Source of the DNA: an uncultured Bacteroidales bacterium
GTDB taxonomy: Bacteria; Bacteroidota; Bacteroidia; Bacteroidales; FEN-979
DNA length: 35,288 nucleotides
Assembly (NCBI GenBank): GCA_903875045.1
Contig: CAIQUS010000226.1
Span: forward strand, 1-35,288
Reading direction: 5' to 3'
Positions 1,056 through 35,288 of the stretch are shown here, piece by piece. Every line of letters begins with the position of its first letter. Position 1 is the first letter of the stretch. The notes under the pieces are model-generated. The model had not been told where the DNA came from. It did not search any database and saw only the letters and a list, made by a program, of their open reading frames with translations. Made by a program: the position numbers and the translations under genes.

Positions 1056-1345
1056 GGTACAACGCCAGCCAAGCACTCCCCCCTCTCCTCCCAGGAGAGG
1101 GGCCGGGGGTGAGGTCCACAGCGCTTAATCCTGGTACAACGCCAGCCAAGCACTCCCCCCTCTCCTCCCAGGAGAGGGGTCGGGGGTGAGGTTCCGTGAA
1201 AACCTGGTACAACGCCAACCAAGCACGCTCCCCTCTCCTCCCAGGAGAGGGGCCGGGGGTGAGGTCCACAGCGCTTAATCCTGGTACAATGCCAACCAAG
1301 CATTCCCCCCTCTCCTCCCAGAAGAGGGGCCGGGGGTGCGGTCCT
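1056..1345. repeat. Four-copy array of REP-like palindromic units (73-77 bp each)
   Basis: Units begin with ggtacaa at 1056, 1133, 1206 and 1283, giving spacings of 77, 73 and 77 bp. Each contains cccctctcct-ccc-aggagagggg, a perfect 10-bp inverted repeat with a 3-nt loop (first copy 1080-1089/1093-1102), followed by a conserved g-rich tail ending near gggggtgaggt. Copy 4 has one stem change (gaagagggg) and a different tail. Copies 1 and 3 share the same linker (ccacagcgcttaatcct), while copy 2 has another. Conceptual translation gives phrases such as LTPGPSPGRRG, which are spurious. The hairpin and the nearby RAYT gene suggest REP elements; transcription readthrough control is an alternative role. 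Confidence 0.88.
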
Positions 1346-32660: not shown

Positions 32661-34469
32661 ATGCAGGAAATCAGAAATATCGCAATTATTGCCCACGTCG
32701 ACCACGGTAAAACAACCCTGGTTGACCGGATTTTACACCAGGTTCACATGTTTCGCGACAATCAGGATGTTGGAGAGCTTATTCTCGATTCAAACGATTT
32801 GGAACGTGAACGCGGGATCACCATTTTATCGAAAAATGTTTCCGTACGATATAAAGGAGTTAAGATCAATATCATCGATACACCAGGCCACAGTGATTTT
32901 GGCGGCGAAGTTGAACGTGTGCTGAATATGGCCGACGGGGTCCTCATCCTGGTTGATGCCTTTGAAGGTCCTATGCCACAAACCCGGTTTGTGCTGCAAA
33001 AGGCCCTTGAACTCGGAAAGAAACCCATTGTTGTTATTAACAAGGTTGATAAACCAAACTGTTCGCCTGATGAGGTACATGAGGCGATGTTTGACCTGAT
33101 GTTCAGCCTGGATGCCAGTGAAGACCAGCTCAATTTTCCCACAGTGTATGGTTCGTCGAAGCAAGGCTGGATGTCGGACGATTGGAAGAATGAAACCACC
33201 GATGTCAGTTATCTGCTCGATCAGATCATTGAGCATATCCCAGCTCCGCAACAATTACCCGGAACGCTGCAGATGCAGATCAGCTCGCTCGATTATTCTT
33301 CATACGTGGGAAGGATTGCCGTAGGCCGCATCACCCGTGGATCCGTGAAAGCAGGCATGCCGATTTGCCTCGTGAAAAATGACCGGACAGTCATCAAATC
33401 GGTTGTCAAGGAGTTATATCTTTTTGAAGGGCTGAGCAAGGAGAAAGTTAAATTCGAAGTATTTGCAGGTGAAATCTGCGCCATCCTGGGGCCTGAAAAT
33501 TTTGACATCGGCGATACCATTGCCGATTTTGAAAATCCTGAAGGCATGTCGCCCATCAGCGTGGATGAGCCCACCATGAGCATGCTTTTTACCATCAACA
33601 ACTCCCCGTTTGCCGGTAAAGAAGGTACTTTTGTTACCTCCCGCCATATCCGTGACCGCCTTTTCAAAGAGACAGAAAAGAATCTGGCATTGCGGGTCGA
33701 AGAGATGGATTCTCCCGACCGTTTCCAGGTGTTTGGCAGGGGAATCCTTCACCTGGCGATCCTGGTGGAAACCATGCGTCGCGAAGGATATGAGTTCCAG
33801 CTGGGCCAACCGCGGATATTAACAAAAGAGATTGATGGGCAGAAATGCGAACCGGTAGAACTGTTGAAAGTTCAGGTTCCTGAGGCTTTTGCCGGAAAAG
33901 TTATAGAACTCGTCAGTCGCAGGAAAGGCGATATGACGCACATGGAACACAAACGCGAACGGGTAATCCTCGAGTTTGACATCCCGGCGCGCGGGCTGAT
34001 CGGTTTGCGCAATCCGGTGCTGACGGCCACCGAAGGGGAAGCAGTTATGGCACATCGTTTTAAATCATATCAACCATGGAAAGGTGATTTACCGGGTCGC
34101 AACAACGGCTCACTGATCTCCATGTATACCGGGTTGGCCATCACGTATGCCATTGATAAATTGCAGGATCGGGGCAAGTTTTTCATTGAACCTTTCGAGG
34201 ATGTCTACAACGGACAGGTAATCGGTGAGAGTACCCGCAGCGACGATATCGTGATCAATGTAAATAAAACCAAGAAACTCTCGAACGTCCGCGCATCGGG
34301 TTCCGACGACAAGGCCGTGATCTACCCGGCCACCAAGTTTTCGCTCGAGGAGGCCATGGAATATATCAAAGGGGATGAATATGTAGAGGTTACCCCGAAA
34401 TCAATTCGTTTGCGCAAGATTTTACTGGACGAAATTGACCGGAAGCGGAGCAGCAAGCAACAGGTTTAG
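32661..34469 (+). CDS. typA: Translational GTPase TypA/BipA
   Basis: A 602-residue ribosome-associated GTPase. The G domain has AHVDHGKTT (G1, residues 11-19), RERGITI (G2), DTPGHSDF (G3) and NKVD (G4). Domains II, III and V and the BipA-specific C-terminal domain (including HRFKSYQPWKGDLPGRNNG) follow. It helps ribosome assembly and translation under stress or cold. The length is normal and the start is supported by the conserved MQEIRNIAIIAHVDHGKTT N-terminus and by a -7 element 35 bp upstream. It converges on a small lipoprotein gene with 60 bp between stops. Confidence 0.97.
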   Translation: MQEIRNIAIIAHVDHGKTTLVDRILHQVHMFRDNQDVGELILDSNDLERERGITILSKNVSVRYKGVKINIIDTPGHSDFGGEVERVLNMADGVLILVDAFEGPMPQTRFVLQKALELGKKPIVVINKVDKPNCSPDEVHEAMFDLMFSLDASEDQLNFPTVYGSSKQGWMSDDWKNETTDVSYLLDQIIEHIPAPQQLPGTLQMQISSLDYSSYVGRIAVGRITRGSVKAGMPICLVKNDRTVIKSVVKELYLFEGLSKEKVKFEVFAGEICAILGPENFDIGDTIADFENPEGMSPISVDEPTMSMLFTINNSPFAGKEGTFVTSRHIRDRLFKETEKNLALRVEEMDSPDRFQVFGRGILHLAILVETMRREGYEFQLGQPRILTKEIDGQKCEPVELLKVQVPEAFAGKVIELVSRRKGDMTHMEHKRERVILEFDIPARGLIGLRNPVLTATEGEAVMAHRFKSYQPWKGDLPGRNNGSLISMYTGLAITYAIDKLQDRGKFFIEPFEDVYNGQVIGESTRSDDIVINVNKTKKLSNVRASGSDDKAVIYPATKFSLEEAMEYIKGDEYVEVTPKSIRLRKILLDEIDRKRSSKQQV

Positions 34470-34529: not shown

Positions 34530-34973
34530 CTATGGTTTAGGGGTGTTGCTTCCTGCATCCAGCACATATTTCCAGCTTCCGTCGGATTGCTTTTCCCAGA
34601 TTGAGACATAGTTGCCGTACAGGGTTGTGTCGGTCGCTTTAAGATAAAGTTCCCACTGGCCAAAAGTATAACCAAGATCATTTGACCGGCTGATTTTTGC
34701 CCTTAGCGGTGTCCATTTCAGAATCATTCCTGAATCGGGCCGGGTCAAATAGATACCCGCCATTTCATTTTTACTTGTGATGGGAAACTTGCCGTCCTGT
34801 AACTTTACCGCACTGTCGGCAGCATAAAAGAGGAATGCCGTGTTCAGACCTTTTTCAACACTCATCTGGCTGAAAGCCTTGTCATTGGCAATTAGTACAG
34901 ACGGATCGCTTTTTTTTTCGTGACAACATCCAAAGAGTAGCAGGATCAACCCAAACTGGAACATTTTTTTCAT
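34530..34973 (-). CDS. Small lipoprotein, DUF4440/NTF2-like
   Basis: A 147-residue protein with a lipoprotein signal (MKKMFQFGLILLLFGC, C16 lipidated). The remainder, ANDKAFSQMSVEKGLNTAFL to YVSIWEKQSDGSWKYVLDAG, matches the DUF4440/SnoaL-like (NTF2) cone fold, in which a WxxxxDGSWK segment closes the C-terminus. Members are often small periplasmic or secreted proteins that bind a small ligand; no catalytic residue set can be named here. It has no operon partner; a possible weak -7 (TAATTTAG, 34996-34989) lies upstream. Confidence 0.8.
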   Translation of the reverse strand: MKKMFQFGLILLLFGCCHEKKSDPSVLIANDKAFSQMSVEKGLNTAFLFYAADSAVKLQDGKFPITSKNEMAGIYLTRPDSGMILKWTPLRAKISRSNDLGYTFGQWELYLKATDTTLYGNYVSIWEKQSDGSWKYVLDAGSNTPKP

Positions 34974-35127: not shown

Positions 35128-35153
35128 ATTGGCAACGTAGTTGCCCAATCTTT
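35128..35153 (+). terminator. Terminator-like hairpin at the intron insertion site
   Basis: ATTGGCAAC (35128-35136) pairs with GTTG(C)CCAAT (35140-35149), with a GTA loop and one bulged C, and is followed by cttt. Group IIC introns insert just downstream of such hairpins, and the intron start follows directly. Confidence 0.75.
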
Positions 35154-35154
35154 G

Positions 35155-35288
35155 GTGTGCCGGGCATGTAGTAATTCTAAAGGGTGCGGGGAAGCAATTT
35201 CCCAAGTCCCGAAAGAGCCGTAATGACCGGAATTTTATAGCCGAAAGCAAGGGTGTCCCGGGCAACCGGGAATCTGAAGGCAGCCGTA
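35155..35288 (+). mobile_element. 5' end of a group II intron (class C-like), truncated by the window edge
   Basis: The sequence opens with GTGTGCCGGGCATG, the typical group II (bacterial B/C class) 5' splice-site consensus. Domain I landmarks follow in order: AAAGGGTG with a matching AAGTCCCGA, GCAAGGGTGTCC, a CCCGG-GCAA-CCGGG tetraloop hairpin (35257-35270), and AATCTGAAGG (35271-35280) with GCAGCC after it. These are the most conserved pieces of the 5' part of these ribozymes. The hairpin plus short T-run just before the boundary fits class C target preference. Domains II-VI and any LtrA-type reverse transcriptase/maturase would lie to the right of the window. Confidence 0.88.

Follow-up and report, generated by a model that had tools for sequence, protein, structure and literature searches.

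A group IIC intron at a contig end of an uncultured Bacteroidales bacterium and its probable insertion into dispersed palindromic repeats

The window analysed here is an entire contig (C226, CAIQUS010000226.1; 35,288 nt) from the 5.96-Mb, 253-contig assembly of an uncultured Bacteroidales bacterium (GCA_903875045.1, G000). It stops 134 nt into a sequence that begins shortly after a small hairpin, and this raises two questions: what is the element that the contig end cuts, and what kind of site has it entered? A first-pass annotation, made from the sequence letters, had called it a truncated group IIC-like intron inserted after a terminator-type hairpin. The features on which our answer is built are as follows.

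35155..35288, + strand: first 134 nt (domain I) of a group IIC intron, the element being cut by the contig end; assigned from matches in the same genome and in G018, and from RF02001 in a relative
35256..35288, + strand: start of the RF02001 (group-II-D1D4-3) region, a TCCCGG-GCAA-CCGGGA stem and AATCTGAAGG; 20.7 bits
35131..35145, + strand: outer palindrome of the target repeat, GGCAAC-GTA-GTTGCC, read from the sequence
35146..35154, + strand: spacer and putative IBS1 (CAATCTTTG), the intron entering after the G; IBS1 placed by analogy with PMC10190682
35089..35154, + strand: left part of a dispersed REP-like repeat that the intron splits, from alignment with G016:C225 and with C216 and C92 of the same genome; left limit set by eye

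The intron and its copies

The opening motifs of a group II intron are found where the first-pass annotation placed them, within these 134 nt. Its statement on position, that 5 bp separate the element from a hairpin followed by cttt, also holds literally: once one bulged C is allowed, the hairpin extends over 35128-35149, with CTTTG between it and the intron. Covariance models, which it had proposed as a check, give a divided answer. The window has no Rfam match at gathering thresholds, and the sole RF02001 match in its last 189 nt, cut off at the 3′ end, scores 20.7 bits (E 0.017) against a gathering score of 32, but the same model gives 138 bits (E 9.5e-30) in an uninterrupted relative from the same genus (G018), where RF01998 (domains I-IV) gives 47 bits. 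Among 200 shuffles of the hairpin stretch alone, 14 fold as RNA at least as well as the original (z -1.68), and the intron's first 134 nt are no more stable than their shuffled versions (z -0.39).

The relative in G018 (G018:C1, JAPLDF010000014.1; Bacteroidetes bacterium isolate LacPavin_0419_WC70L_MAG_48_58) is a whole intron of 1919 nt, set inside a contig of 61 kb; its start, its end and the TAG beyond it are the same as in our genome. A 195-nt intron query taken from contig C113 matches it at 95% (E 4e-84), and it was the single match in an exact-pattern scan of the genome contigs. The 195-nt query has matches in 11 of 61 genomes; the lineage itself is present in two of the 61 (our genome and G018), and the weaker matches inspected, a set that does not include L029 of G050, are other IIC lineages. 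The open reading frame of the G018 intron (500 codons) encodes an intact RT-maturase with RVT_1 and GIIM domains, which scores 414 bits against TIGR04416 (cut-off 300) and has the GsI-IIC RT as its best solved (PDB) match (E 5.5e-124), the IIC enzymes 7uim and 5hhj being among the best. The group IIC assignment made at first pass is thereby upheld on three counts, namely D1-D4 covariance matches, an IIC-type maturase and a hairpin 5′ of the site. Absence of an RT and of domains V/VI had been named as what would speak against an intron, and this uninterrupted relative carries an RT together with apparent domains V/VI. The next best full-length RT in the 61 relatives stands at 51%. In 393 genomes of the order, a search limited to E 1e-140 gave two matches (51 and 53%) and would miss shorter ones. 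The lineage is thus far known from two genomes and one complete copy.

Within our own genome, the 5′ end of the intron occurs at seven places, every one of them a contig end, and the contigs stop 95-195 nt into the intron; three more matches to the window-end query cover its first 27 bases only (the hairpin part) and were excluded. Over the shared length, 35155-35288 is 100% identical to the other contigs with the exception of C113, where 153 nt of the 161-nt query, exon included, match at 95% and the intron part at 99%. A matching 3′ end is found at ten contig ends, and 17 contig ends of the assembly therefore coincide with the intron (7 by the 5′ end, 10 by the 3′ end). That the 5′ copies all lie at contig ends is as expected, because a multi-copy repeat halts the assembler. 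The word 'truncated' is thus correct for the window copy, which is incomplete, but it is only the contig end that makes it so, there and at the other own 5′ copies.

Domain V at the 3′ ends in our genome scores 27.5 bits with RF00029, whose gathering score is 40. One of these ends folds into domains V and VI with a single bulged A, the seventh base from the 3′ end, and 0 of 200 shuffles are equally stable; the domain V/VI end of the G018 intron is nearly identical to that at the ten contig ends. No complete RT of the intron was found in the own-genome assembly, only C-terminal pieces. Contig C106 retains an in-frame 55-aa RT C-terminus that is 89% identical to the G018 protein, and given this an ORF-less intron is not favoured. 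Contig C198 (1-1767) has about 200 nt of intron 3′ end fused to coding-like sequence and appears by eye to be either a 5′-cut copy or an assembly chimera.

Three other RTs of the genome, on C29, C93 and C244, were considered as the intron's RT and rejected as being of other types. The first (C29, 3767-6828; RT at 1399-2589 of that stretch) has an AAC/AAT-rich repeat-like region in front and a best PADLOC match of 'RT' (129 bits); from its appearance we take it to resemble a diversity-generating retroelement. The second (C93, 16249-20052; 1168-2379 of the stretch) looks like a retron-type RT, with RT-Toprim_I-C as its best PADLOC match (319 bits). On C244 (500-4500, minus strand; 79-1050 and 1062-2186 of the stretch), Cas1 (PF01867, 153 bits) comes directly after an RT (RVT_1, 60 bits).

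Judged from sequence, the window stops in a group IIC intron that measures about 1.9 kb and carries its RT-maturase inside; our genome has at least ten copies of it as counted by 3′ ends.

The insertion site and the sister lineages

At all eight 5′ junctions of the lineage (seven from our genome, one from G018) a palindrome ends 8-10 nt before the intron, with a stem of 5-7 bp that is different each time. When Watson-Crick pairs only are allowed, seven of the eight still have the palindrome, and C113 needs G.U pairs. Such a palindrome at that distance is found at 1383 of 450,934 positions (0.31%) in a background of 20 own-genome stretches (225,867 bases, both strands). The last base of the 5′ exon is G at 8/8 junctions, and the longest stretch of T within its final 15 nt is 1-3 at every one. 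On the other side of the intron, the 3′ exon starts with TAG in 11/11 cases (ten own, one G018), as against 1/7 for another IIC lineage (six own ends and G017). A second palindrome starts 24-32 nt into the 3′ exon in seven of the eleven by strict rules; the background for a start at 15-40 nt, sampled at every seventh position, is 1653/64,214 (2.6%). The 3′ exons of C40, C104 and G018 have a weaker second palindrome by eye (a G.U pair or a 4-bp stem), and that of C68 has none. The target layout read from these junctions would be an outer palindrome followed by 8-10 nt, the insertion point G^TAG, a gap of about 27 nt and, usually, an inner palindrome.

We reject a terminator target, a T-run longer than three being found at none of the lineage's junctions. 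The hairpin in the window is likewise without a T-tract, and what the first-pass annotation took for a terminator-type hairpin belongs instead to a dispersed palindrome family; it is other IIC lineages, in the same genome and family, that follow T-runs. We also tried the pattern ATSWTTGTAG as a counter of the repeat and rejected it: it gave 129 matches against 46 for a reversed control, yet seven of eight inspected ATCTTTGTAG stretches were without a preceding palindrome. The eighth, on C77, has two palindromes in front.

What an empty site looks like can be approached through the neighbour of the window. In one relative (G003:C63), bipA is followed by two minus-strand genes, both of which have matches on C10 of our genome (53% over 876 aa, E 0; 51% over 268 aa, E 8e-94) with gene order and orientation conserved. 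The matched genes on C10 lie 5.4 kb from its intron end, and among the ten 3′ contigs C10 has a 3′ exon of the window's repeat type. The corresponding stretches of seven other relatives, two of them shorter than 3 kb, have no match to C10, so that the link comes from one relative of eight; the G002 stretch has a weak match to C81 (31%). This gene order suggests that C10 lies to the right of the window. Joined together, the window flank and the C10 flank align without gaps over 80 nt with uninterrupted repeats (identity 74/80 for C92, 70/80 for G016:C225 and 66/80 for C216), and insertion therefore took place between G and TAG without duplication. Copies at different sites and a gap-free empty site are consistent with an intron that splices and is retromobile. 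Between bipA (32661-34469) and the intron, the window also contains a minus-strand ORF at 34530-34973 with a weak DUF4440 match (21.0 bits, below the Pfam cut-off of 25.2).

Sister IIC lineages sit at a different kind of site. Their junctions have a T-run of at least four in 18 of 21 cases, although many of these junctions are copies of few lineages and hence non-independent. The 21 comprise 20 of 24 sister matches, L029, L046, L054 and L051 (masked bases) being excluded, together with G021:C118; the T-run of L034 (TTTTTT), counted among the 18, was read by eye. A scripted stem search, which misses loops longer than 7 nt, found stems of 10-15 bp in 9/21. Another lineage of our own genome has six domain V ends (36.5 bits) and is full length in G017:C42, and its 5′ end, GTATGTCGGGC, also terminates own contig C20. 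In an RT tree of eight rows, built without G009 for which no frame was obtained, our lineage is sister to three T-run lineages (G017, G253 and G272) with support of 100/100. This position, in which one RT stands for the lineage, suggests that a switch from terminators is the derived state. The EBS1 loop of the lineage differs from that of the sisters. CCAA in this loop pairs in 24 of 32 cells across the eight sites; CAAA does equally well, and the score is attained at 6 of 420 positions, so the EBS1 pairing is not unique.

In our view this is probably a mobile group IIC intron from a lineage that targets a dispersed palindromic repeat. One alternative is an ordinary IIC intron that accepts any suitable hairpin, the repeats being merely common intergenic hairpins and the lineage having no specialisation. 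The use of different inverted repeats by IIC introns (PMC7923331), including terminators without a U-tract (PMC8919778), lends itself to this explanation, as do the eight differing stems, which imply that stem sequence is not required. Against it, none of the eight sites has a T-run longer than three, although T-runs are where another IIC lineage of this genome and most of the sisters are located; nor is the constant TAG of the 3′ exons demanded by hairpin shape alone. On balance we regard the absence of specialisation as unlikely.

The palindromic repeats and Y1 transposases

A query with one subtype of the repeats into which the intron lineage probably inserts has 43 matches in our own genome and, among 31 genomes, finds matches in eight; a second subtype has 5 own-genome matches, 24 in G014 and 1-6 in four more (6/31 genomes), and all genomes matched by the repeat queries belong to the genus. 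Some repeats form arrays with a period of 51-53 nt, in both orientations, with or without the intron. A canonical REP has a basal stem of 7-20 nt with GTAG or GTGG 0-2 nt away (PMC6006769); here the stems are 5-7 bp and the tag is 8-10 nt away, and because of this distance from the stem we call the repeats REP-like. A palindrome of another repeat family, CCCCTCTCCTCCCAGGAGAGGGG, occurs three times near the start of the window (1080-1102, 1157-1179 and 1230-1252), about 75 nt apart.

Three loci (G003:C65, G016:C30 and G017:C95) each contain a Y1_Tnp gene (PF01797) flanked on both sides by an outer and an inner palindrome in mirror order; at a fourth (G016:C79) the Y1 gene lies inside a palindrome array. 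These four dimer-bearing loci, of 15 fetched, were selected because repeat and Y1 matches overlapped there; the other 11, which include the three Y1 genes of our own genome, have other hairpins or none, not this dimer. Read by eye, the six ends of the three complete loci carry GTAG once, ATAG three times and ATAA twice. A transposase C-terminal fragment adjoins a window-type dimer at G016:C225 (tblastn E about 1e-5), and on own contig C92 DIDYDEQYSFEWDE and a stop lie between two dimers, by eye a similar short transposase C-terminus. Repeats of this outer/inner build thus bound Y1 (IS200-like, HuH) transposase genes on both sides at three complete loci in the genus. A further palindrome family with TTTA/TAAA loops (GTCAGCTTTAGCTGAC, GTTGGCTAAAGCCAAC) surrounds other Y1 genes (G000:C52 and G018:C73; also L091 and L107), which suggests several Y1-repeat systems in the genus.

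It could be argued that the palindromes are host repeats of other function that happen to lie near some Y1 genes, and that the intron uses them anyway. Their departure from the canonical REP description (PMC6006769), their absence from 11 of the 15 fetched Y1 loci and the deviating tag at five of six Y1 ends all fit this account. Against it stand the mirror-order pairs at both ends of the three complete genes and the transposase C-terminal remnants beside dimers at G016:C225 and, by eye, on C92; we judge it improbable. A dead fragment, a chance match or an assembler-made junction would agree with own copies that all stop at contig ends, the lack of a complete assembled RT and the appearance of C198, but is very remote and for the lineage already refuted, given seven different 5′ junctions with one common start, the whole G018 intron with the same start, end and TAG, and the in-frame RT end on C106.

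For an intron lineage that inserts into these repeats, we would envisage the following mechanism. The intron RNP would recognise the extruded palindrome by its shape (eight sites have eight stems), and would also need a short IBS1 ending in G and a T as IBS3. Insertion would proceed by reverse splicing and reverse transcription, with the repeats providing intergenic landing sites that Y1 transposases would spread or would once have spread. The lineage would have moved away from terminators with a change in its EBS1 loop. More speculatively, insertion may disable the repeat end for the transposase by separating the palindrome from the TAG.

In its fullest form, this reading holds that a distinct IIC lineage in Bacteroidota switched from terminators to the palindromic ends of Y1 (HuH) transposons, where it reads shape and G^TAG and parts the two on insertion, so that one element lands in, and may silence, the copies of another; the Y1 enzymes would be subclass-1.2-like with a REP-like system of their own. 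We hold this fuller version to be evenly balanced between right and wrong. Our confidence both in the preferred explanation and in the switch was slightly lowered because GTAG is found at only one of six Y1 ends.

Relation to known systems and significance

The IIC RNP holds a DNA stem-loop with a consensus of about 12 bp and pairs with 4 nt of IBS1 and 1 of IBS3 (PMC10190682), and both terminators and attC sites serve IIC introns (PMC7923331). Our lineage resembles the terminator-associated introns in its ribozyme domains, maturase, 5′ hairpin, short IBS1 and T as first base of the 3′ exon. It differs in having stems of 5-7 bp rather than about 12 bp (PMC10190682), a spacer of 8-10 nt, no T-run and a TAG after the site. 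The target is less new than it might seem, because a published survey already reports class C introns downstream of terminators that have a U-tract and of terminators that lack one (PMC8919778). With the IIC-attC introns it would share the specialisation of a IIC lineage on the palindrome of another system; there, however, the sites are integron attC sites, and here dispersed palindrome pairs, and the reported IIC-attC site, TTGT/T (PMC7923331), extends one base past the NTTG^T of our lineage. A group II intron of Pseudomonas putida KT2440 also has copies in extragenic palindromes, but these lie in REPs in only a minority of cases (2/9), and its class is not stated in the available text of that report (PMC1525189).

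The repeats themselves recall the REP/RAYT (TnpAREP) systems, in which dispersed GTAG palindromes are clustered, occur in both orientations and in part lie beside Y1 HuH genes (PMC3733652, PMC6006769). They are unlike these in the 8-10 nt between tag and stem and in the pairing of outer with inner palindromes. In the available part of PMC3733652, GTAG repeats are given for other phyla and, for Bacteroidetes, CGTC repeats alone. In their Y motif (YILNQEEHH) the transposases here come closest to subclass 1.2, a group without structures listed in the accessible portions of PMC3733652 and PMC6006769, and they have NHVH in place of the DH[IV]H listed there for that subclass.

We recognised no published description of this target in the literature on group II and IIC introns with hairpins, REPs, terminators, RAYT, attC and Bacteroidetes, within which coverage of subscription papers is limited. 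The element is thus of a known kind and its target class apparently undescribed, on small numbers from two genomes. If the interpretation is correct, IIC introns can shift their choice of target to DNA palindromes of a further class, in addition to terminators and attC sites, and a ribozyme retroelement would be tied to the repeats of Y1 transposases. The natural stems of 5-7 bp would also bear on how much stem the IIC RNP needs.
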